Below, one piece after another: positions 1,366 through 54,298 of a stretch of DNA of 63,727 bases. Position numbers and translations under genes: made by a program. Source of the DNA: Gammaproteobacteria bacterium. GTDB lineage: Bacteria > Pseudomonadota > Gammaproteobacteria > Steroidobacterales > UBA11654. The stretch's first letter is position 1, and each line of letters starts with the position of its first letter. The notes beneath the pieces are model-generated. The model was not told the origin of the DNA. It was given only the letters and a program-made list of their open reading frames with translations, and did no database searches. The stretch covers positions 1 through 63,727 of the forward strand of contig NZHP01000011.1 in NCBI GenBank assembly GCA_002691465.1, read 5' to 3'.

Positions 1366-1779
1366 ATGTTGCAACCAAAGAGAACAAAGTACAGAAAACA
1401 AATGAAAGGGAAGAATCGAGGCCTTGCTTCGAGAGGAAGTACTGTTTCATTTGGTGAATATGGATTGAAAGCAACTGGCCGAGGAAGGATTACAGCAAGA
1501 CAAATCGAGGCGGCTAGAAGGGCGATGACTAGGCACATTAAAAGAGGTGGTAAGATCTGGATAAGGATTTTCCCTGATAAGCCAATCACTAAAAAGCCAC
1601 TTGAAGTAAGACAAGGAAAAGGTAAAGGTAATGTGGAATATTGGGTCGCACAAATTCAGCCTGGAAAAGTTTTATATGAAATGAGTGGCGTAGAAGAAAG
1701 TCTAGCTCAGGAAGCATTTAAACTTGCTGCAGCAAAACTACCAATCAGCACAAAGTTTGTAAGTAGGCAAATCATATGA
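1366..1779 (+). CDS. rplP: 50S ribosomal protein L16
   Basis: 137 residues (E. coli 136) with the L16 start [15 protein letters not shown] and the loop [12 protein letters not shown]16 organises the A-site of the large subunit. The stop codon overlaps the rpmC start by four bases (ATGA at 1776-1779), implying translational coupling. Confidence 0.98.
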
Positions 1780-1973
1780 TTGATATGAAGGATATAAGAA
1801 GTAAGGGAGCAAAGGATTTAGAGAATATGCTTGATGACCTTTTAGATGAGCAAATGAAGTTAAGGCTTCAATTTGTTACTGGCCAAGTCACGAATTCAGG
1901 TCAATTTAAAAAGATTAGAAAAGATATAGCTAGATTGAAAACAGTTTTGAGTGAGCAAAATAATGGCAATTGA
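1776..1973 (+). CDS. rpmC: 50S ribosomal protein L29
   Basis: 65 residues, close to the 63 of E. coli. The helical hairpin with [28 protein letters not shown] is the L29 signature. The first ATG overlaps rplP (ATGA). A second in-frame ATG at 1785 (MKDIRSKG) would give an N-terminus closer to other L29 proteins, so the start is uncertain by three codons. L29 sits near the exit tunnel and contributes to the trigger-factor/SRP docking surface. Confidence 0.95.
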
Positions 1974-2232
1974 TAATCAAAAAAATACAAGAAGAACTAC
2001 AGGCGTTGTTGTCAGTGACTCAATGGACAAGTCGGCTACTGTCGCTGTGCAAAGGAGGATGAAGCATCCTCTCTATAACAAATATATATACAAGACTACA
2101 AAGATCATGATTCATGACGAAGAAAATGCTTCTAAGTCGGGAGATAAAGTGACAATTAAAGAATGTAAGCCTATATCAAAGAATAAAGCGTGGGTTTTGG
2201 ATCAAATAATAGAGTCTAAAAGAGCGGAGTAA
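1963..2232 (+). CDS. rpsQ: 30S ribosomal protein S17
   Basis: 89 residues when started at ATG 1963 ([19 protein letters not shown]). An earlier in-frame GTG at 1951 is possible but gives an atypical leader. The OB-fold core GVVVSDSMDKSATVAVQRR and KHPLYNKYI are typical of S17, which binds 16S rRNA early in assembly. The start overlaps the end of rpmC by 11 bases. Confidence 0.96.
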   Translation: MAIDNQKNTRRTTGVVVSDSMDKSATVAVQRRMKHPLYNKYIYKTTKIMIHDEENASKSGDKVTIKECKPISKNKAWVLDQIIESKRAE

Positions 2233-2235
2233 TCG

Positions 2236-2604
2236 ATGATTCAAACTGAAACAATGCTTAATATTGCAGATAATAGTGGCGCTAGGAAAGTTCTGTGCAT
2301 AAAAGTGCTAGGCGGCTCAAAAAAGAGATATGCAAGAATCGGGGACATCATCAAGGTTACCGTCAAGGATGCGATTCCAAGAGGTAAAGTTAAGAAGGGT
2401 GATGTTTATGATGCATTGGTTGTAAGAACCAAGTCTGGTGTAAGAAGATCGGATGGTTCACTCATAAGATTTGATGGAAATGCTGCAGTGCTTCTCGATA
2501 ATAAATTAGAGCCTATTGGAACAAGAGTATTTGGACCTGTTACAAGAGAATTAAGAGCAAAGAAGCAACTGAAGATCATCTCCCTTGCTCCAGAAGTTAT
2601 ATAG
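2236..2604 (+). CDS. rplN: 50S ribosomal protein L14
   Basis: 122 residues (E. coli 123). Starts [18 protein letters not shown], the universal L14 N-terminus, and contains [15 protein letters not shown]14 forms an intersubunit bridge. First gene of the spc operon, here following rpsQ by three bases with no room for a separate promoter. Confidence 0.98.
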
Positions 2605-2614
2605 GAATTTTAAA

Positions 2615-2932
2615 TTGAAAAAGATAAAAAAAGGCGACCAAGTAATAGTACTTTCAGGCAAGGATAAAGGAAGGAGTGGCACTGTATTGAGCATACTCAA
2701 GAACTCTAAAGTGCTTGTTGAGAATGTGAATATTGTGAAGAAACATCAAAAGGGTAACCCCAATACTGGACAAGAGGGTGGAATCATAGAAAAAGAAATG
2801 CCAGTTCATATCTCAAATGTGATGTTAATGAACCCTATTACTAACCAACCAGATAGAGTGGGTATTAAGAAGCTTGAGGATGGAACAAAGGTAAGGTTTT
2901 TCAAGTCAAATAATGAGGTTGTGGACATTTAG
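2615..2932 (+). CDS. rplX: 50S ribosomal protein L24
   Basis: 105 residues (E. coli 104) if started at TTG 2615, giving (M)[19 protein letters not shown] with the KOW motif. An AGGA at 2603-2606 lies eight bases upstream, supporting the TTG. An in-frame start at 2585 would add ten residues inside rplN and is unlikely. L24 initiates large-subunit assembly. Confidence 0.95.
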
Positions 2933-2934
2933 AA

Positions 2935-3690
2935 ATGGCAAGGTTAAAAGAGAAATATAATCAAGAAATCAAGACTAATCTTCAGAAGAAGCTCGGACTT
3001 TCTAATGCTATGGAAGTCCCAAAAATAAAAAAAATTACTGTGAATATGGGTGTTGGAGAAGCAGCACAGGATAAGAAAACAATCGAAAAGGCTGTTGCTG
3101 ATCTTGAGAAACTAGCTGGACAAAAAGCATTCATTACTCGCGCAAGAAAATCAGTTGCTTCATTTAAAATCAGAGAGGGAATGCCAATAGGAGTCAAAGT
3201 AACACTCAGAAGAGAAAGGATGTATGAATTTTTGGACAGGCTTATCAATGTTGCGCTTCCCCGTGTAAGAGACTTCAGGGGCCTGAATAGTAAATCTTTT
3301 GATGGCAATGGTAACTATAGTCTGGGAGTAAAAGAGCAGATCATTTTCCCTGAAATTGATTATGACAAAATAGACAAGATAAGAGGTTTAGATATAAGTA
3401 TTACAACAAGTGCAAGGAATGACGAGGAAGGATTAGCATTATTAAAAGAATTTAACTTTCCTTTAAAAGATGCTCCAAAGAAAAAATCAACTGAGGAGTC
3501 AAAGGTAGAAGAAGTTATTGAATTAGCTGATGCAGAGCCTGAAGCTGGAGCTGAAGCAGTAATTGATACAGCTGATGCTAAGAATGAACCAGAAGAAAAA
3601 GAAGCTGCCGTGATATTAGATGCAGAGACTAAATCAGAAGAAGTATCTGAAATAAAAGATAAAGAAACTGAAATTGAGGAAAAAGAATGA
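2935..3690 (+). CDS. rplE: 50S ribosomal protein L5 with long acidic C-terminal tail
   Basis: Residues 1-179 are an ordinary L5 (starts [11 protein letters not shown]; contains [20 protein letters not shown]; ends FNFPLKD), which binds 5S rRNA and contacts P-site tRNA. Residues ~181-251 are an extra tail very rich in Glu (about 20) with Asp, Ala and Lys, low in complexity and probably disordered. E. coli L5 has 179 residues. The frame is continuous and its TGA overlaps the rpsN ATG by four bases, so the tail is not an artefact of a lost stop beyond the gene. Confidence 0.96.
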
Positions 3691-28274: not shown

Positions 28275-28508
28275 ATGAGACAGATTATTATTTCCTATCA
28301 AAAGTTTATTTCTCCTTATCTCCCAAATTCTTGTAGGTATTTTCCTACATGCTCTCAATATTCAATCGAGGCAATTGATCGTCATGGTTCAATCAAAGGA
28401 TTCATTCTCATGGTGCTAAGAATCTTGAGATGTAATCCTTTTTTTAAGGGTGGACATGATCCGGTTCCAGAAAAATTTCAAATCCTAGGAAATTCCAGAG
28501 ATAATTAA
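28275..28508 (+). CDS. yidD: Membrane protein insertion efficiency factor YidD
   Basis: 77 residues (E. coli 85). [36 protein letters not shown] and GGHDPVP are the defining YidD motifs. It helps YidC-dependent membrane insertion. Normally found between rnpA and yidC; here it follows sufE by ten bases. Confidence 0.95.
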
Positions 28509-28579: not shown

Positions 28580-29581
28580 ATGCCTAACCATAATGAAGGA
28601 AAAATACTCCAACAGATGTACTTAATTCACGGAGCTGAAGACTTACTAATACTTGAGGCCCAAGATGATATTCGAAGCAATGCTTATGCTGAGGGTTTCA
28701 CAGAGCGCTCCAGATTCTACTTTGATGCAAGATCAAATTGGGATGGGGTTTTTGCAGAATTGAAAAGTCCATCACTTTTTGCTGAAAAAAAGATTATAGA
28801 GATCAATCTTCCTTCGGGCAGACCTGGAAAAAGTGGTTCTGCAGCATTATTGGAATTAATGGAAATGATAACGGATGAACACCTATTAATATTGATCTGC
28901 GGAAAATTAGAAAAAGCTGTAGTCAATACAAAATGGTTCAAGACATTTTCCTCTAAGGCCCAAGTTATCGAATGCAAGAAAGTCTATCCCTCTCAGATGT
29001 CTGGGTGGATTTCAAAGAGGCTCCGAGATAAGGGTCTATATATTGATAAGGATGCATTGGATATCTTTGTAGCACTGACTGAAGGAAATCTTTTTTCTGC
29101 AATGCAATCTATTGACCGACTTATGCTGATGGAGATTGATCAACACGTTTCTCTTAATGATATCAATGACTGCGTGGCTGATGGAGCTCATTTCGATCTT
29201 TTTCAGCTGACTGATGCAGCTATTTCTTCCAATAGCACCCGGACATTCAACATCTTTAGACGCCTTCAAAAAGAAGGAATGCAGCCTTTTGAGGTTATGA
29301 GGGTCATTAATTGGGAGATTAAAAATTTATTCAATATGAGTCTAGACATTTCTTGCGGCAATTCTGTCAAGCAAAGCATGGATCGAGCTAAGATCTGGAA
29401 GAGTAAGCAGCAGCTCATCGGTAATTTTCTTAATCGAGTGAATCACGGATACATGGAATCAATTCTAGGGCAAGCATGTTCTACTGACAAAGTGATTAAG
29501 GGAGCAGCAGCCGGTGATTCTTGGGATGAAATTGGAAGGCTTTTATACATGATTACCAATCCACAAAGGAAATCAGTATGA
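28580..29581 (+). CDS. holA: DNA polymerase III delta subunit
   Basis: 333 residues (E. coli 343). AAA+-like clamp-loader subunit: N-terminal Q..YLIHGAEDLLILEAQD, ..RFYFDARSNWDGVF, and a C-terminal helical domain (~240-333) with LLYMI. It opens the beta clamp. ATG 28580 chosen; a TTG at 28571 is possible. The stop overlaps the rsfS ATG. The usual leuS-lptE-holA linkage is broken: lptE lies 5.4 kb upstream. Confidence 0.9.
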   Translation: MPNHNEGKILQQMYLIHGAEDLLILEAQDDIRSNAYAEGFTERSRFYFDARSNWDGVFAELKSPSLFAEKKIIEINLPSGRPGKSGSAALLELMEMITDEHLLILICGKLEKAVVNTKWFKTFSSKAQVIECKKVYPSQMSGWISKRLRDKGLYIDKDALDIFVALTEGNLFSAMQSIDRLMLMEIDQHVSLNDINDCVADGAHFDLFQLTDAAISSNSTRTFNIFRRLQKEGMQPFEVMRVINWEIKNLFNMSLDISCGNSVKQSMDRAKIWKSKQQLIGNFLNRVNHGYMESILGQACSTDKVIKGAAAGDSWDEIGRLLYMITNPQRKSV

Positions 29582-30382: not shown

Positions 30383-30444
30383 ATTCATGTTCTTTTCATA
30401 ATTGCTGAGTATAATTTCTGAACAAACTTATTAACCATATTGCA

Positions 30445-31614
30445 ATGATAAAACTCATAATTTCAATTTTGCTTAAGATTATATTTGCAGCTTTAGTTGT
30501 CTCAATTCTGTCAGTCGGAGTTGCCATGTTCGCTCTATCTTTCGGAAAAACTGAGATTGAAAATCGACTGAATGAAATGGTTATTGAAAATAAGTCGGAG
30601 ATAGTTGAAGCAGTGGAAAATCGATTGTCTCTTAATTTTGAATACGAAAACTTAATCGTTTCTTATGAAAGGTATTCAATCAATGATTTGAAGATTCAGT
30701 TTTCTTTCAGAGACGTTCGAATGGCGCAGGTCAATGATTCATTGCCTGTTGACATTGATGAACTCAGTATTGAAATTGATCTGACTAGATCTATTTTCAG
30801 TCAATTACCAGCAATTACAGCAATCATTATTAATGGCAGTGACATTCAATTTAGTCATAATAATGAGAGCGGTTATATGATCAATAATATTCCAATTACA
30901 CAATTTAGACTCCCAAAAAGAGAGGGATTTAAAAGACCCTCATTGGAGCTGAAGTCCATTTCTTCTAAGGCAATTGATATTGAGCATCTTCAATCAACGG
31001 TTGGTCTCAGTGATGTGATTGAGAGCAATGATGCTTCATTTTTTTTAAATCTAAAATGGGATGAGGTTCCAAGAAAGCAAGAGGTTTTATTTGCTGAAGG
31101 AAAGATTCAACTTTTAATAATGGATGGCGTGATCAATACCAGGGAATCGGTCCCAGGAAAAGCATTATCCATCTTTAGCTTCTCTCAATTGCCAAAGCGT
31201 TTTTTACTTAATTTTGAGGATGTACTTGATGAAGGATTGGTTTTTGACTATATAAAGGGGGATGTTTTACTCAAAGAGAGAACCGCGCTTACTTGCAACC
31301 TTTCTTTGAATACTAAAACAGTGGATGTGTTAATTGTTGGCGCATCAGATCTTCAGCAAAGGACTTATGATCAGATGATGATTGTTGATCCCGATGTTTC
31401 TGACATTTTAACTGGCGGAGCTGCTGTTTTGGCTGGGCCTGCTGCTGCTGCGTCAATGTTTCTCCTATCAAGAATATTAAGCAGACCAGATGAGGATACA
31501 TTGAGCTATTTTGATGTATCAGGAGAATGGAAAAATCCACAGATTGCTCCCATCGAAAGAGAGGAGATCGATGTGTCTTTGATAGAGAATTGTGAACAAT
31601 TTCTTCCAAATTAA
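30445..31614 (+). CDS. Very short YhdP/AsmA-like envelope protein
   Basis: 389 residues. One N-terminal membrane anchor (~residues 5-32) followed by a periplasmic beta-rich region that resembles the start of YhdP (membrane-proximal domain with ENRL..FEYENLIVSYE). The C-terminal ~120 residues resemble the YhdP end: an F.Y..GDV..KERTAL domain, then GGAAVLAGPAAAASMFLLSRIL and a final DVSGEWKNPQI. Full-length YhdP has about 1,270 residues, so most of the middle is missing. The neighbours nitrilase and tldD are the usual yhdP neighbours, supporting orthology. YhdP-family proteins move phospholipid between membranes. Confidence 0.75.
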   Translation: MIKLIISILLKIIFAALVVSILSVGVAMFALSFGKTEIENRLNEMVIENKSEIVEAVENRLSLNFEYENLIVSYERYSINDLKIQFSFRDVRMAQVNDSLPVDIDELSIEIDLTRSIFSQLPAITAIIINGSDIQFSHNNESGYMINNIPITQFRLPKREGFKRPSLELKSISSKAIDIEHLQSTVGLSDVIESNDASFFLNLKWDEVPRKQEVLFAEGKIQLLIMDGVINTRESVPGKALSIFSFSQLPKRFLLNFEDVLDEGLVFDYIKGDVLLKERTALTCNLSLNTKTVDVLIVGASDLQQRTYDQMMIVDPDVSDILTGGAAVLAGPAAAASMFLLSRILSRPDEDTLSYFDVSGEWKNPQIAPIEREEIDVSLIENCEQFLPN

Positions 31615-31640: not shown

Positions 31641-32441
31641 ATGAAAGTTGCAGCCATTCAAATGAATTCCTCTGATCAGGTAGATTCTAATCTGGCCAAA
31701 GCAGAGTCATTGGCGATAGAAGCCAAAAATGCTGGGGCTGATATTTGTTTCTTTCCTGAAAACTTCGCATTCATGGGACATCCGAAGGAGATTTTGAGTT
31801 CAGTGATGGAAGACGAGGAAACTGGACCTATTCAATCTTTCGTTTCAAGCATAGCCAAAGAGCATAAAATATGGATCATTGCAGGATCCATTCCAATCAG
31901 GGACCCACAAACAGAGAAAGCATTGTCAAGATCAGTAGCCTTTAATGAGAATGGAGAAGTTGAAGGTTTTTACGATAAAGTTCATCTATTTGATGTCGAA
32001 GTAAACGGAAAGAAATACTATGAATCCGAGGCATTTACTCCAGGCACTGAAACCAAATCAATCAATGCTCCATGGTGTAACATCGGTTTGTCAATTTGTT
32101 ATGATCTCAGGTTTCCAGAACTCTACAGGTCAAAGAAATTTAAAGACATTGAAATTATAAGTGTCCCATCGGCATTCACTAAGGAGACTGGAGAAGCACA
32201 TTGGATGACTCTATTAAAATCAAGAGCAATTGAGAATTTGGCTTATGTTATTGCTCCTAATCAATGCGGAGAACACTTTGGCGCAAGGAAGACTTTTGGT
32301 CACACTGTGATTATCAATCCTTGGGGTGAAGTAATGGACATAAAAGAAAGCGGAGAAGGAATTGTGCTTGCAGAAATTGACATTAAGCGTCTAAAATCAA
32401 TCCGCAGAAAATTTCCTGTTTTAATGCATCGAAAACTATAA
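31641..32441 (+). CDS. Nitrilase-superfamily amidohydrolase (Nit1/Nit2-like)
   Basis: 266 residues. Catalytic triad Glu40 (FFPENF), Lys113 (YDKVHLFD) and Cys153 (SICYDLRFPELY). Closest to the Nit1/YafV-type omega-amidase and deaminated-glutathione amidase branch, which repairs damaged metabolites; substrate not provable here. Located between the YhdP-like gene and tldD, a conserved gammaproteobacterial arrangement. Confidence 0.92.
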   Translation: MKVAAIQMNSSDQVDSNLAKAESLAIEAKNAGADICFFPENFAFMGHPKEILSSVMEDEETGPIQSFVSSIAKEHKIWIIAGSIPIRDPQTEKALSRSVAFNENGEVEGFYDKVHLFDVEVNGKKYYESEAFTPGTETKSINAPWCNIGLSICYDLRFPELYRSKKFKDIEIISVPSAFTKETGEAHWMTLLKSRAIENLAYVIAPNQCGEHFGARKTFGHTVIINPWGEVMDIKESGEGIVLAEIDIKRLKSIRRKFPVLMHRKL

Positions 32442-32463: not shown

Positions 32464-33900
32464 ATGCAAAACGTTGAAGAAATCGTAAGGTCTAGACTGC
32501 TCGATCCCTATGGGATCGATGATATGGATCTGCAAACAATGCTCGGTCAAGTTGTCTCAAATGGCATTGAGATGGGCGACATATATTTTCAAAGTGCGGA
32601 AGCAGAGTCTTGGACTTTAGAAGACGGTCAGGTCAAGAAATCATCTTACTCAAGCAGACAGGGCGTGGGCTTTAGATCAATCATAGGAGAGCAAACAGGT
32701 TTGGCATACTCAGAATCTTTTGAGAAAGAGTCTTTGATGACAGCTGCTAAGGCTGCATCCAGTATTGCAAAGGCAGGAAAAAGTGAAGCCCTCCCAATTT
32801 CAAAGAGGGATTTTGGTAAACCATATTACTTAGCAGACAGCCCAATTTTATCGATTGACGATCAACACAAGATTGACATGTTGAATCGCTTGGATGAGAA
32901 AGTCAGGTCACTGGACTCAAGAGTCAAAGAGGTTATTGCTTCGCTTGCAGGAGCCTATGGAACTGTCCTTATCTTGAATCAAGACGGCAGGCTAGCCACT
33001 GATATCAGGCCAATGGTCCGATTGAGTCTCAGCGTCATAGCGGAGGACAATGGTCGACTTGAAAGAGGAACAAGTGGCGGCGGCGGACGAATGACCTATG
33101 ATTTTTTGGATGATGACCAATTGGGTCAATATGCCAAAGAGGCAGTTGACCAAGCATTGATCAATTTGGAAGCAGACGAAGCACCCGCAGGTGAGATGAC
33201 AGTCGTTCTGGGCTCTGGTTGGCCAGGCGTTTTAATACACGAAGCCATTGGTCATGGGCTAGAGGGAGATTTTAATCGCAAGAAAACATCGGCATTCTCT
33301 GGGCTAATGGGTGAAATGGTTGCATCTCCCATCTGCACCATAGTCGACGATGGAACCATCGAGGATGCAAGAGGTTCATTGAACATAGACGATGAAGGCA
33401 ATCAAACCGAAAGAACTGTTTTGATCGAAAATGGCAAGTTGTGCAATTACATGCAGGACAATCTAAATGCAAAATTAATGAAAACCAAATCAACAGGAAA
33501 CGGAAGGCGCGAATCGTATTCTGCTCAAACGATTCCAAGAATGACCAATACATTTATGTTGGCCGGTGAGCATGATCAAGGAGAGATCATTGAATCGGTC
33601 GATAAAGGTTTGTATGCCAAAAATTTCGGTGGCGGTCAGGTGGATATCACATCAGGAAAATTTGTCTTTTCTGCCAGTGAGGCTTATCTAATTGAAAAAG
33701 GAAAGCTTACCAAGCCGGTCAAAGGCGCAATGCTCATTGGCGATGGACCCTCTGCGTTGCATCAAGTTTCCATGGTTGGAAATGATTTGGCCTTGGATCC
33801 AGGGGTTGGCAGCTGTGGAAAAGACGGACAGACTGTTCCTGTCAATGTTGGTCAACCAACAATGAGAATTGAGAAACTAACGGTCGGTGGAACGACCTGA
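32464..33900 (+). CDS. tldD: Metalloprotease TldD
   Basis: 478 residues (E. coli 481). HExxxH zinc motif His259-Glu260-...-His263 in HEAIGHGLEGD. Forms a heterodimer with PmbA/TldE, which cleaves unfolded peptides and matures microcin/CcdA substrates in E. coli. The partner pmbA lies 556 bp downstream, separated only by the opposite-strand purE. It ends one base before the convergent purE stop. Confidence 0.97.
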   Translation: MQNVEEIVRSRLLDPYGIDDMDLQTMLGQVVSNGIEMGDIYFQSAEAESWTLEDGQVKKSSYSSRQGVGFRSIIGEQTGLAYSESFEKESLMTAAKAASSIAKAGKSEALPISKRDFGKPYYLADSPILSIDDQHKIDMLNRLDEKVRSLDSRVKEVIASLAGAYGTVLILNQDGRLATDIRPMVRLSLSVIAEDNGRLERGTSGGGGRMTYDFLDDDQLGQYAKEAVDQALINLEADEAPAGEMTVVLGSGWPGVLIHEAIGHGLEGDFNRKKTSAFSGLMGEMVASPICTIVDDGTIEDARGSLNIDDEGNQTERTVLIENGKLCNYMQDNLNAKLMKTKSTGNGRRESYSAQTIPRMTNTFMLAGEHDQGEIIESVDKGLYAKNFGGGQVDITSGKFVFSASEAYLIEKGKLTKPVKGAMLIGDGPSALHQVSMVGNDLALDPGVGSCGKDGQTVPVNVGQPTMRIEKLTVGGTT

Positions 33901-33901
33901 T

Positions 33902-34384
33902 CTAGCTCAAGTCAGCAGCTAAAACTTTTTCGGCTTGCTCTTTACGGTAGTTTTTTAATTTCTCTGACAAATCGCTGTCATTCACTGCCATCATTGCGAC
34001 TGCATATAAAGCAGCATTAATAGCACCGGGTTTGCCGATCGCTACAGTTCCGACCGGAATTCCAGGGGGCATCTGAACAATCGACATTAAAGCATCCATT
34101 CCGTCAAGACTGCCTGCATTGAGAGGCACGCCAATAACAGGCGTGGTTGTCAACGCGGCGACCACTCCTGGGAGAGCAGCAGATAGTCCTGCTCCTGCGA
34201 TGAAGGCTTTTACTTTTTGGTCTTCGCATTCTCGGATGAATTCCTCGAGTTCTTTGGGTGTTCTGTGTGCAGAAAGAACTCTGCTCTCTGCGTTTACACC
34301 AAATTGATCCAACATTTTTTGTGCGTTTGACATGACATCCCAATCGGACGCTGAACCCATTACAATTGCTACATCTATACTCAT
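33902..34384 (-). CDS. purE: N5-carboxyaminoimidazole ribonucleotide mutase
   Basis: 160 residues (E. coli 169). VMGSASDWDVM, SAHRTP and AGAGLSAALPGVVA are PurE class I motifs. Converts N5-CAIR to CAIR in purine synthesis. Inserted between the two partners tldD and pmbA, on the opposite strand; no purK is adjacent. Confidence 0.97.
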   Translation of the reverse strand: MSIDVAIVMGSASDWDVMSNAQKMLDQFGVNAESRVLSAHRTPKELEEFIRECEDQKVKAFIAGAGLSAALPGVVAALTTTPVIGVPLNAGSLDGMDALMSIVQMPPGIPVGTVAIGKPGAINAALYAVAMMAVNDSDLSEKLKNYRKEQAEKVLAADLS

Positions 34385-50262: not shown

Positions 50263-52203
50263 ATGAGAAAACATCTTTTTTTAGTTTCTTGCTTATTTCT
50301 ATTTTCATCAGTCATTGCATTTGCAAATGAAAGAACTGAAAACAATGGCAATTTAATACTTAAAAATATTCCAATAATCCCTGAAAACATTAAAAACGAC
50401 CTTACTCGTTACCAGAATATAAGATCGGCACCTTTCAGAGGATTCAATCGCGAAGGCAATGGAATATTTATTACAACTCGTTTTGGGAATGTCAGCCAAT
50501 TGCATAGAGTTAGGAAACAAGGTGGAGCAAGGGAGCAAATTACATTCTTTGAAGAGCCAATCGGTTCGATATCGAGAAAACCTGGAGGCCAATTAATTGC
50601 ATTTACGATGGATGCGGGGGGCACTGAAAACAATCAAATTTTCCTTTTGGATCCAAAGAACGGTTCATCAGTGATGTTGACAGATGGCAAATCAAGAAAT
50701 GGCGGAGCATTATGGGAAAAAAATGGTTCTCGAATTGCATATCAGAGCACACGCCGTAATGGACAATCCAATGATGTTTGGATAATGGATTCCAAAGATT
50801 TAAATTCAGCAGAGATGATTCTAGAGTCCCCCGATGGAACTTGGTGGGGTGCGAGTGATTGGTCAGAGGATGGCAAAAAGATTTTGATTCAAAACTACAT
50901 ATCAATCACAAATGCAAAAGCTTACCTTTTGGATGTTCAATCGAAAAAGATAGAAATGATTCTCGGTTCAAATGAGAATGAATCATACAATGCGATTTTG
51001 TCATTTGACCGATCCCAGAATGGCATATTCTTTCTGACCAATGAGTATGGCGAGTTCAATCAACTCGCGCACAAAGACTTAAAGACAAATAAAATCAACG
51101 TCTTGACAGAGGGAATACCATGGGATATCGATGGTTATGCCATTTCATCCGACCATAAAAAGGCCGCTTTTACAGTCAACGAGGGCGGCATGGGTTCTTT
51201 GTACCTCATGGACACAGAATCAAAAAAATACAGAAAAGTGAGTAACATACCCATCGGCCTCATCGGTGGCATTGAGTTTAGTGAAGATGGGACCAAGTTG
51301 GGCTTGACCATCAATAGTTATCAATCTCCATCCGACAGTTATGTACTAGATCTGAAAAAAAATCCTCTGCTCTATGGCAATTTAAACCGCTGGACTGTTT
51401 CTGAGATTGGTGGATTGGATGTTTCTGAATTTGTTTCACCGAAACTCATCTCTTATGAGAGTTTTGATGGAAGAATGATCCCTGCATTTATTTATGCGAA
51501 TGAGTGTACTGAGCCACAACCCGTAATCATATCAATCCATGGTGGCCCAGAGAGTCAATCAAGGCCTTCGTTTAGCCAGAGAGTTCAACTGTGGTCCAAG
51601 AGACTTGGCGCAGCAGTGATCACACCGAATGTGAGAGGGAGCGACGGTTATGGGAAGAATTATTTGGGTCTGGACAATGGCTTCCTGAGAGAGGACTCTG
51701 TGAAAGACATCGGCGCACTTCTGGACTGGGTAGAAGCTCAACCATGCCTTGATTCTGATAGAGTTGCAGTGATTGGAGGATCTTACGGAGGCTATATGGT
51801 TCTTGCGAGTGCCACGCATTACTCTGATCGCCTTAGAGCCGCTGTTGATATTGTTGGCATTTCCAACTTCGTTACCTTCTTGGAAAACACTGAAGACTAT
51901 AGAAGAGATTTAAGACGAGTAGAGTATGGAGATGAGAGGGATCCTGAAATGAGGGAACACCTTCAGTCGATCAGTCCGAATAATAATATTGAGAAAATCA
52001 ATGTCCCAATTCTTGTTGTTCAGGGTGAAAATGACCCCAGAGTACCAGTGACCGAATCAGAACAAGTCGTGAAATCTCTTGAAGAGAAACAAAAAACTGT
52101 ATGGTATATGAATGCGTTAAATGAGGGACATGGATTTAGAAAAAAAGAAAACAGAGACATTTATGAGCAAACCGTTATTTTATTCTTTGAAAAATATCTC
52201 TAG
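50263..52203 (+). CDS. S9-family serine peptidase (dipeptidyl/acylaminoacyl peptidase-like)
   Basis: 646 residues. Signal peptide (MRKHLFLVSCLFLFSSVIAFA), beta-propeller (~60-370, with repeats such as IAFTMDAGGTENNQIFLLD), then the hydrolase domain. Catalytic residues Ser507 (GGSYGGYM), Asp591 (GENDPRVPV) and His623 (NEGHGF). Predicted periplasmic breakdown of small peptides. Followed by a second, distinct S9 peptidase that overlaps its 3' end. Confidence 0.93.
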   Translation: MRKHLFLVSCLFLFSSVIAFANERTENNGNLILKNIPIIPENIKNDLTRYQNIRSAPFRGFNREGNGIFITTRFGNVSQLHRVRKQGGAREQITFFEEPIGSISRKPGGQLIAFTMDAGGTENNQIFLLDPKNGSSVMLTDGKSRNGGALWEKNGSRIAYQSTRRNGQSNDVWIMDSKDLNSAEMILESPDGTWWGASDWSEDGKKILIQNYISITNAKAYLLDVQSKKIEMILGSNENESYNAILSFDRSQNGIFFLTNEYGEFNQLAHKDLKTNKINVLTEGIPWDIDGYAISSDHKKAAFTVNEGGMGSLYLMDTESKKYRKVSNIPIGLIGGIEFSEDGTKLGLTINSYQSPSDSYVLDLKKNPLLYGNLNRWTVSEIGGLDVSEFVSPKLISYESFDGRMIPAFIYANECTEPQPVIISIHGGPESQSRPSFSQRVQLWSKRLGAAVITPNVRGSDGYGKNYLGLDNGFLREDSVKDIGALLDWVEAQPCLDSDRVAVIGGSYGGYMVLASATHYSDRLRAAVDIVGISNFVTFLENTEDYRRDLRRVEYGDERDPEMREHLQSISPNNNIEKINVPILVVQGENDPRVPVTESEQVVKSLEEKQKTVWYMNALNEGHGFRKKENRDIYEQTVILFFEKYL

Positions 52204-54298
52204 AAAGAAAATTAGCTTGAAGACAGGCCAATACTGTCTATATTTTCTCTTCCTTTTTTCACTGAACCAAAGTGTAATCTCGTCCGATTTAGATCCTTAT
52301 CTTTGGCTTGAGGAAGTTGAAGGTGAAAAGTCGCTGGCTTGGGTTGAGGAGCAGAATGAAGAGACGTTTACTCGATACACCCAGTCAAATGCATTCAAAA
52401 AGAAATACGAAAGAATCAAGAAAGAACTCAATGACGATGAGAGGATTCCAAGTGCTTACTATCAGAATGGTGAAATGTACAATTTTTGGAGGGATGAGAA
52501 AAATGTAAGGGGGATTTGGAGGAAAACTTCATTCAAGTCTTATCTAAAAGACGAGCCTATTTGGGAGAATATCCTTGATATTGATCAACTTGCAAAGGAT
52601 GAAGGCATCAATTGGCTCTACAAAGGAGCCGATTGTCTTGCACCAGAATATAAGCGTTGTCTCATTAGACTTTCTGACGGCGGGACAGATGCAGTCACAA
52701 TACGTGAGTTCGACTTAAAGGAAAAAAAATTCGTAAAAGATGGATTTAACACCTATCCATCAAAGCAAAATGCATCTTGGGTCAATGAAGATCAGATTCT
52801 AATTGGAGCTGATTTTGGCGAAGGAAGTATGAATGAGTCTGGTTACCCCATGCAGGTCAAATTGTGGAATCGGGGAGAGTCTCTTGAGGAGGCAAAAATC
52901 TTCTTCTCAGGATCATATGAAAAAATATTCAATTTTCCATTTGTCAGTATTAGACCGGATGGAAAGTACTATGGAATCATTGAAGGCCCAACATTCTTCT
53001 CGGAAGTATTGCATCTCTTTGATGGCGAAAAACTCATAAAGATCAATCTTCCACAAATGATTGATATTCATGGTTTTTTCAATGAATCACTCATCTTAAG
53101 CATTGAGGAAGATTGGGAAATCTTTAAATCTGGATCTTTGTTAGAGATTAATGTGAATTCACTTCTTGCAAATAGTATCGATGAGAGTGATGTTAAAATT
53201 ATTTTTGAACCGGATGGTCAACGCTTTATTTCTGGAGTTAGCATTGGCAAGCATCAGTTAATGGTTAGCATGCTTGAAAACGTCAATGGAAAAATTACAA
53301 GGTTTATGAAAAAAGATGATCGTTGGGATTCCAAGGATATTGAAGGATTTCAAAATTCAACGATGAATATTTATGGACAGGATGTTTGGTCAGATAATTC
53401 CTTCATATCCGTCTCGAATTTTTTAGAGCCTTCAAGTATTTATCATGCTTCTGATGGCGCAGATTACAAAAAAATTAAATCTAGAAAAAATTCCATCGAT
53501 CCAGAAAAGTACAGAGTAGAACAAAATTTTGTTTCTTCTTCAGACGGTACATCGATTCCATACTTTCTTATTTCCAGGAAAGGCATCAATTTAGATGGGA
53601 AGAATCCAACCATTCTATATGGTTATGGGGGTTTTCAAATCTCAAAACCACCATCGTATCTGGGTGGCTCAATTGCTGAATACTGGCTTAATTCGGGCGG
53701 TGTTTATGTTGTTTCGAATATTCGGGGCGGTGGTGAATATGGGCCAGCATGGCATCAATCTGCCCTCAAAGAGAATCGTCAAAGAGCCTACGATGATTTC
53801 ATTGCTATTGCCATCGACTTGATCGAAGAAGGAATTACTTCTAAAGATCATCTTGGGATTGAAGGCAGATCCAATGGCGGATTATTGGTTGGCGCTACTT
53901 TTACCCAAAGACCTGATTTATTCAATGCAGTGATATGCGGTGTCCCACTATTGGACATGTATCGCTATGATAAATTACTGGCCGGTGCTTCATGGGTTGA
54001 TGAGTACGGTGATCCTGACAATCCTGAAGAGTGGGAGTACATCAGAAAATACTCGCCCTATCAAAACTTAAAAAAGGGCACTGAATATCCCGAAGTATTC
54101 TTTTATACCTCTACAAAAGATGATCGCGTTCATCCTGGACATGCCAGGAAAATGGCAAAGAAGATGACTGATATGGGATCACCAATCGTTTATTATGAGA
54201 ATACAGAAGGAGGGCATGCTGGAACATCAAACATAGATCAGTTTTCCTTCCTCTTGGCTTTACAGCTGGCTTATTTAGAAGATAAGTTGATGAATTAA
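52163..54298 (+). CDS. Prolyl oligopeptidase family peptidase (S9A)
   Basis: 711 residues from ATG 52163. Alternative in-frame starts are ATG 52121 and TTG 52217; the last gives a compact signal peptide (KTGQYCLYFLFLFSLNQSVISS). Mature start DPYLWLEEVEGEKSLAWV is the S9A hallmark. From ATG 52163 the triad is Ser570 (GRSNGGLL), the Asp in DDRVHP (~653) and His685 (GGHAGTS). Cleaves after proline in short peptides; export to the periplasm predicted. Confidence 0.92.
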   Translation: MSKPLFYSLKNISRKKISLKTGQYCLYFLFLFSLNQSVISSDLDPYLWLEEVEGEKSLAWVEEQNEETFTRYTQSNAFKKKYERIKKELNDDERIPSAYYQNGEMYNFWRDEKNVRGIWRKTSFKSYLKDEPIWENILDIDQLAKDEGINWLYKGADCLAPEYKRCLIRLSDGGTDAVTIREFDLKEKKFVKDGFNTYPSKQNASWVNEDQILIGADFGEGSMNESGYPMQVKLWNRGESLEEAKIFFSGSYEKIFNFPFVSIRPDGKYYGIIEGPTFFSEVLHLFDGEKLIKINLPQMIDIHGFFNESLILSIEEDWEIFKSGSLLEINVNSLLANSIDESDVKIIFEPDGQRFISGVSIGKHQLMVSMLENVNGKITRFMKKDDRWDSKDIEGFQNSTMNIYGQDVWSDNSFISVSNFLEPSSIYHASDGADYKKIKSRKNSIDPEKYRVEQNFVSSSDGTSIPYFLISRKGINLDGKNPTILYGYGGFQISKPPSYLGGSIAEYWLNSGGVYVVSNIRGGGEYGPAWHQSALKENRQRAYDDFIAIAIDLIEEGITSKDHLGIEGRSNGGLLVGATFTQRPDLFNAVICGVPLLDMYRYDKLLAGASWVDEYGDPDNPEEWEYIRKYSPYQNLKKGTEYPEVFFYTSTKDDRVHPGHARKMAKKMTDMGSPIVYYENTEGGHAGTSNIDQFSFLLALQLAYLEDKLMN

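Follow-up and report, generated by a model that had tools for sequence, protein, structure and literature searches.

In E. coli the long AsmA-like proteins are collectively essential, and a role in phospholipid transport to the outer membrane was assigned to them recently. In the members that bridge the periplasm, the beta-rich domain exceeds 700 residues, and AsmA works apart from YhdP and TamB in E. coli (PMC8593681, excerpt). According to simulations, the C-terminus of full-length YhdP can insert in the outer membrane (PMC11226057, excerpt). For YdbH, an interaction with YnbE, a lipoprotein of the outer membrane, is reported (PMC12977461, excerpt). PA2708 of P. aeruginosa, an AsmA-like protein of 361 residues, is non-essential and was judged to need help in order to cross the periplasm (PMC10900882, excerpt).

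Here we describe a gene of 389 codons that is the positional orthologue of yhdP. It lies in a stretch of 63,727 nucleotides from a Gammaproteobacteria bacterium (GCA_002691465.1, contig NZHP01000011.1), referred to here as the window. Its product resembles YhdP (1,266 residues in E. coli) in having both ends, a carbon-nitrogen (CN) hydrolase gene and tldD as neighbours, a predicted anchor helix and a hydrophobic helix near the C-terminus, and its cysteine pair is present in some YhdP members. It differs from YhdP in length (389 against about 1,270 residues), in the loss of about 41 predicted middle strands, and in that a paralogue was undetected in the genome. With YdbH and YnbE the likeness is that a shorter AsmA-like protein is reported to reach the outer membrane via a partner (PMC12977461, excerpt), but YdbH belongs to PF11739 and has 879 residues. 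TamB, acting with TamA, is related by superfamily, by proposed function and by a weak structural match (Z 5.2), yet no TamB profile match was found in short YhdP or in its genome. PA2708, also deemed too short for the periplasm alone (PMC10900882, excerpt), is of similar size; it has six longer paralogues and is non-essential, whereas short YhdP is the only AsmA-like protein detected. We found no account of a shortened YhdP in the open-licence literature searched.

The two ends of YhdP and the missing middle

Against the Pfam YhdP profile PF13116, the protein scores 103.7 bits (cut-off 46; E 9.6e-30). The strongest part of the match spans residues 178-367 and corresponds to profile positions 1033-1224 of 1224, that is, the last 192 positions at the C-terminal end. 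The sole other Pfam match listed is DUF1464, at 18.8 bits and under its cut-off; neither TamB (PF04357) nor AsmA (PF05170) is among the Pfam matches up to E 1. When a profile of the whole short proteins was compared using hhalign, residues 175-388 aligned with residues 956-1170 of the 1171-residue YhdP of a relative (G015) with a probability of 100 (E 1.4e-43), and the mapping of this C part agrees with that in a MAFFT alignment.

For the other end, the N-terminal parts of the ten short proteins were made into a profile, which was compared with one built from 18 full-length YhdPs of the same taxonomic order and was left free to align anywhere along it. The profile of the short proteins landed on the extreme N-terminus, with residues 46-153 matching 28-129 of the 1171-residue protein (hhalign probability 95.9, E 6.4e-9). 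A separate N-terminal PF13116 match (profile positions about 8-124) was listed in six of the ten genus genomes in the whole-genome Pfam search. The MAFFT alignment placed the short N part across the middle of full-length YhdP, and is superseded by the local profile comparison. By these profile comparisons, short YhdP is homologous to full-length YhdP at its inner-membrane end as well as at its outer-membrane end, and some 826 residues of the full-length protein are replaced by about 21.

Table 1. Features of the short yhdP locus, in window coordinates
Feature	Position	Strand	Basis or content
Short yhdP gene	30445..31614	+	ATG start; 389 codons plus stop; internal stops 0
Predicted inner-membrane anchor helix, residues 2-33	30448..30543	+	AF2 helix (block pLDDT 52-67); hydropathy
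N-terminal YhdP part, residues 46-153	30580..30903	+	hhalign vs full-length YhdP
Junction, residues 154-174	30904..30966	+	In place of ~826 residues (positions 130-955 in the 1171-aa relative)
C-terminal YhdP part, residues 175-388	30967..31608	+	hhalign; strand mapping
Hydrophobic helix near C-terminus, residues 321-345	31405..31479	+	AF2 helix (block pLDDT 52-54)
Cys284 codon	31294..31296	+	Probable disulfide with Cys383; Cys conservation
Cys383 codon	31591..31593	+	Probable disulfide with Cys284; Cys conservation
Carbon-nitrogen hydrolase, downstream neighbour	31641..32441	+	PF00795
tldD, downstream neighbour	32464..33900	+	PF19289, PF19290, PF01523

These results uphold the first-pass annotation, which had proposed from the letters alone a 389-residue protein keeping the membrane anchor and the C-terminal segment of YhdP and lacking most of the middle, with the qualification that the anchor itself is predicted. 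What it had named as evidence to the contrary was not encountered: the C-terminal similarity is strong, and the open frame, unbroken here, is conserved in ten of ten genus genomes. Neither the gene nor its flanks (62 bp on the 5' side and 26 bp on the 3' side) contain a frame break or a residual middle.

The AF2 model of short YhdP, calculated from a 43-row alignment, has a mean pLDDT of 77.6 and a pTM of 0.73. It consists of the anchor helix (residues 2-33), two more helices, beta strands, and a low-confidence helix at residues 321-345. The best 19-residue mean hydropathy of the predicted anchor region is 2.53, and the region of residues 321-345 contains the most hydrophobic 19-mer past residue 60 (mean 1.62). 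The model of the 1171-residue relative (pLDDT 77.1, pTM 0.45) was based on a MAFFT alignment of 21 rows, two of them short proteins. Counting predicted strands of at least six residues, there are 13 in short YhdP versus 55 in the relative. Nine strands in the C part, including strand 166-176, pair one by one with the last strands of full-length YhdP, and 41 predicted strands of the relative fall between its residues 124 and 945. Strands are spaced 4.8 angstroms apart; the groove would thus be about 62 angstroms long in short YhdP versus 264 angstroms in the relative. The roughly 350 periplasmic residues of short YhdP fall below the length of beta-rich domain, more than 700 residues, that is a feature of spanning bridges (PMC8593681, excerpt), and we therefore class the protein as a YhdP homologue by descent and not as a spanning bridge. 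The strand counts and this length support the earlier suggestion that it would be too short to bridge the membranes alone.

The best Foldseek match of the model in the PDB was an N-terminal fragment of Vps13, which was not significant (E 0.047), and no Foldseek match reached E 0.001 or better. A second aligner returned TamB of TamAB at Z 5.2, with porins making up most of the rows above TamB (9xdd_B, 9xdc_B), and also listed two rows from the TOC complex. A sequence search of solved structures up to E 1 gave no match to short YhdP, and the one-sided hydrophobicity of its strands was not significant (p = 0.14).

Distribution and constraint

All 59 genomes searched contain a YhdP profile match. 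The short form occurs in each of the ten genomes of the window's genus, in the same neighbourhood, with open frames of 387-405 codons, lengths of 381-395 residues from the first start codon, and 35-94% identity to the window protein. Its carriers are uncultured gammaproteobacteria, including AG-447-O13, AG-365-L08 and AG-435-A22, which we take to be single-cell names; a marine origin is suggested by titles including MED656, TaraRedSea and CM1_200m. An eleventh short YhdP, of 388 residues (L062), was found in a record that bears the title Dehalococcoidia; given that it carries a gammaproteobacterial short yhdP, this record is probably misassigned.

The search covered one further genus of the family, the sister genus, where the YhdP at the same place is 659 residues long (G010). 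In other families of the order, whole yhdP frames are mostly 1170-1400: they are mainly of 1,250-1,400, with 1174 in the relative used above (G015), a reduced genome of another family. A few frames of the order are shorter or fragmented (G028 1164, G047 817, and also G017, G038 and G052). Two further candidates for the short form were discarded. First, the 664-codon open frame of L085/G208 appears to reach the contig end. Second, in L070 a yhdP is interrupted and reads as two ORFs (49-1626 and 1712-3616), one of which gives the 634-residue protein, and a repeated stretch at the break suggests an assembly join.

The class-wide draw comprised 275 genomes, 253 of which match the YhdP profile; among the matches listed (best E down to 5.4e-194), every frame has at least 1013 codons, and shorter ones may occur among the matches that rank between these and the weakest. 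A closer look covered 21 of the 24 weakest matches (E above 1e-82, G000 set aside), the other three being G224, G270 and G318. The shortest seemingly whole frames among these 21 are 788 (G319), 816 (G292) and 826 (G156 and G267); G208 is also one of the 21, G287 has a possibly incomplete frame of 737, G115 is in pieces, and G086, at 666, is under the cut-off. No whole frame near 390 was seen among the 21 matches re-examined.

Short yhdP is conserved and under purifying selection, with dN/dS (Nei-Gojobori, eight pairs) of 0.093-0.164. When four pairs were split at residue 170, dN/dS was 0.154-0.347 for the N part and 0.041-0.098 for the C part; the lower values of the latter identify the outer-membrane end as the most constrained part.

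Exactly two cysteines, 99-100 residues apart, are present in all ten short proteins, and the 659-residue protein of the sister genus has cysteines at both homologous sites. Among 30 longer frames (L070 included), six carry two cysteines at these sites, spaced by 100-101 residues; six more have two cysteines elsewhere, 24 residues apart, and the last 260 residues of the remaining 18 lack cysteine. A lone cysteine in this region occurs in none of the 30. That the two cysteines are kept in all short forms and are never single in the longer frames suggests a disulfide between Cys284 and Cys383, which would close the C-terminal domain. The occurrence of cysteines at these sites in six longer frames rules out that the pair is new to the short form.

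Possible lipid transport by a quarter-length protein

We searched for other lipid carriers in 11 family genomes, namely the ten of the window's genus and that of the sister genus, with completeness of 64-92%. None of the 11 has a match to TamB (PF04357; present in 22 of 29 others), AsmA (PF05170; 25 of 29), YdbH (PF11739; 2 of 29), MCE/MlaD (PF02470; 14 of 19) or DUF748 (PF05359; 8 of 9, five of them above the cut-off and several in AsmA-type frames). With nothing found by these five Pfam profiles, short YhdP is the sole AsmA-like protein detected in the family. The first-pass annotation had raised the question of another long AsmA, TamB or YdbH protein in the genome; this result, together with the genus-wide occurrence of the short form (10/10), goes beyond it. 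Incompleteness is unlikely to be the cause of absence from all 11 genomes; a highly divergent carrier, beyond the Pfam profiles, may be present. The reduced genome with the 1171-residue YhdP is likewise without TamB, AsmA, YdbH and DUF748 matches, and has an MCE protein.

The markers of an outer membrane are largely in place. LptD (PF04453) was found in nine of the 11 genomes (none in G006 and G008), with frames of 723-745 residues in seven of the nine; the others are 487 (G007) and 649 (G010, where the match is in two stretches of one frame). Omp85 (PF01103) was found in ten, all but G003, and each of these carries one frame with the size expected of BamA (798-832 residues). Within the window there are genes for LptE, apolipoprotein N-acyltransferase, an RND pump (1027 residues) and its adaptor (378 residues). 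Judged by these markers, the family would have an outer membrane of the usual kind, and the prevalence of LptD and of the BamA-sized Omp85 points to continued assembly of an LPS outer membrane, for which phospholipid is needed.

Two side observations concern these families. In G009, a second Omp85 lies in three pieces (C1:508474-509519; open frames of 97, 179 and 571 codons), possibly a TamA remnant or another Omp85; this genome is without a TamB match. Among 14 genomes selected for weak or short YhdP matches, TamB was found in two, and the 12 without it, mostly small genomes, are G208, G156, G267, G319, G061, G093, G323, G189, G294, G155, G266 and G330. YhdP may thus outlast TamB during genome reduction, as judged from these 14 selected genomes.

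Our preferred reading, to which we assign a probability of about 0.45, is that short YhdP is a conserved, functional protein made of both ends of YhdP without the repeating middle, and serves as a lipid carrier that needs help with distance. It is supported by the homology of both ends, the conserved size and place in the ten genus genomes and L062, the low dN/dS, the absence of matches to the five other families where LptD and Omp85 persist, and the strand count. On this reading, it would touch both membranes and be unable to span the gap alone, so that it would depend on a partner or on a close contact, or else have a changed role. Uptake of phospholipid at the inner membrane would remain the task of the anchor and N-terminal cap, the lipid would follow a short groove of some 13 strands, and the C-terminal domain with its hydrophobic helix would still dock on or insert in the outer membrane. 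Since about 60 angstroms is insufficient for an ordinary periplasm, short YhdP should work with a helper that makes up the distance, either a partner that extends inward from the outer membrane or a place where the membranes come into local contact. We favour a partner on the outer-membrane side, of which a lipoprotein, as YnbE is for YdbH, or a POTRA arm of BamA would be candidate types. The interaction of YdbH with YnbE provides a precedent for a partner extending a shorter AsmA-like protein (PMC12977461, excerpt). Counting against the lipid-carrier reading are the nonsignificant hydrophobic face, the weak fold matches and the completeness of 64-92%. By analogy, PA2708 would also count against it, being the sole published AsmA-like protein near this size that we found.

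It is doubtful that all inner-to-outer-membrane phospholipid transport in this lineage runs via the quarter-length protein, such that a continuous single-protein bridge would be dispensable, the two membrane-facing ends essential, and the middle a replaceable spacer. A lineage that has the LPS outer-membrane markers but only the two ends of YhdP separates membrane contact from gap filling, and short YhdP is a natural minimal construct for asking whether length, partner or contact site counts.

In the main rival reading, short YhdP would instead have changed its role to that of a local inner-membrane or envelope factor like AsmA or PA2708, with phospholipid transported via a carrier yet unrecognised. 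Its length alone would fit this role, as would the weak groove signal (p = 0.14) and the precedents of PA2708 and of AsmA, which in E. coli is separate from YhdP and TamB (PMC8593681, excerpt). We nevertheless consider a changed role rather unlikely, given that the outer-membrane end is the most conserved, unlike the prediction for a purely inner-membrane role, and that the five other families are unmatched in 11 of 11 genomes, so that an unrecognised carrier would be required.

A narrow periplasm, or narrow contact sites, that short YhdP could bridge alone is less probable still. The 659-residue intermediate in the sister genus looks as though length tracked a changing gap, and several other reduced genomes have shorter YhdP frames. 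However, the pump and adaptor in the window are of ordinary size, as are LptD (7/9) and the Omp85 frames (10 genomes) of the family, from which we infer an ordinary gap where these proteins sit. In addition, the groove of about 60 angstroms compares with a periplasm of 24.2 nm measured in another diderm (PMC10665443, excerpt).

A split bridge, in which a separate gene supplies the missing middle, is quite improbable. The ends are both kept, as though capping a separate segment, but in none of the ten genus genomes does the YhdP profile hit another locus, and extra matches all lie in the same frame. The same search, which would miss a very divergent middle, does detect middle pieces elsewhere, in G115 (profile positions 398-869) and within G010 (662-848), and lends the split gene no support. 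Finally, a decaying remnant, as reduced genomes with lost neighbours and paralogues might lead one to expect, is rejected as barely conceivable given intact frames in 10/10 genus genomes, low dN/dS (0.09-0.16) and two cysteines in all ten.

The surrounding genes

By Pfam, the order in the window is an rlmH-type methyltransferase gene, short yhdP, the CN hydrolase gene, a TldD/PmbA-family gene (tldD), a gene on the opposite strand, and a second TldD/PmbA-family gene. The gene at 29578 is presumably rsfS, and we take the opposite-strand gene at 33902, between the two TldD/PmbA-family genes, to be purE. The first-pass annotation had also described the neighbours as conserved. This holds for the rlmH-type gene, the CN hydrolase gene and tldD: the compared neighbours are collinear in the window and in nine other loci of the genus, with the contig of G007 stopping beyond tldD, and the CN hydrolase gene and/or tldD adjoin the longer yhdP in 33 of 34 relatives' loci. 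In G009, and only there among the loci compared, the CN hydrolase gene is split over two overlapping frames of 222 and 85 residues (L052, 7701-8509).

In the window's family, rlmH lies immediately 5' of short yhdP (window gap 30383-30444), versus about 2.1-2.2 kb 5' of yhdP in three more distant relatives (L066-L068); the intervening genes, which we assume to be maf and rng, have therefore been lost or moved. A small ORF, presumably YidD-like, at 28275-28508 in the window, precedes holA in all 12 loci inspected (the window and L044-L054). It is followed in nine of the 12 by a second small ORF of 80-86 residues, which we take to be Trm112-like and which is absent in the window, L045 and L051. 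Elsewhere in the window, at 50263-54298, there are two adjacent frames of the prolyl-oligopeptidase family (S9), which overlap by about 80 bases.
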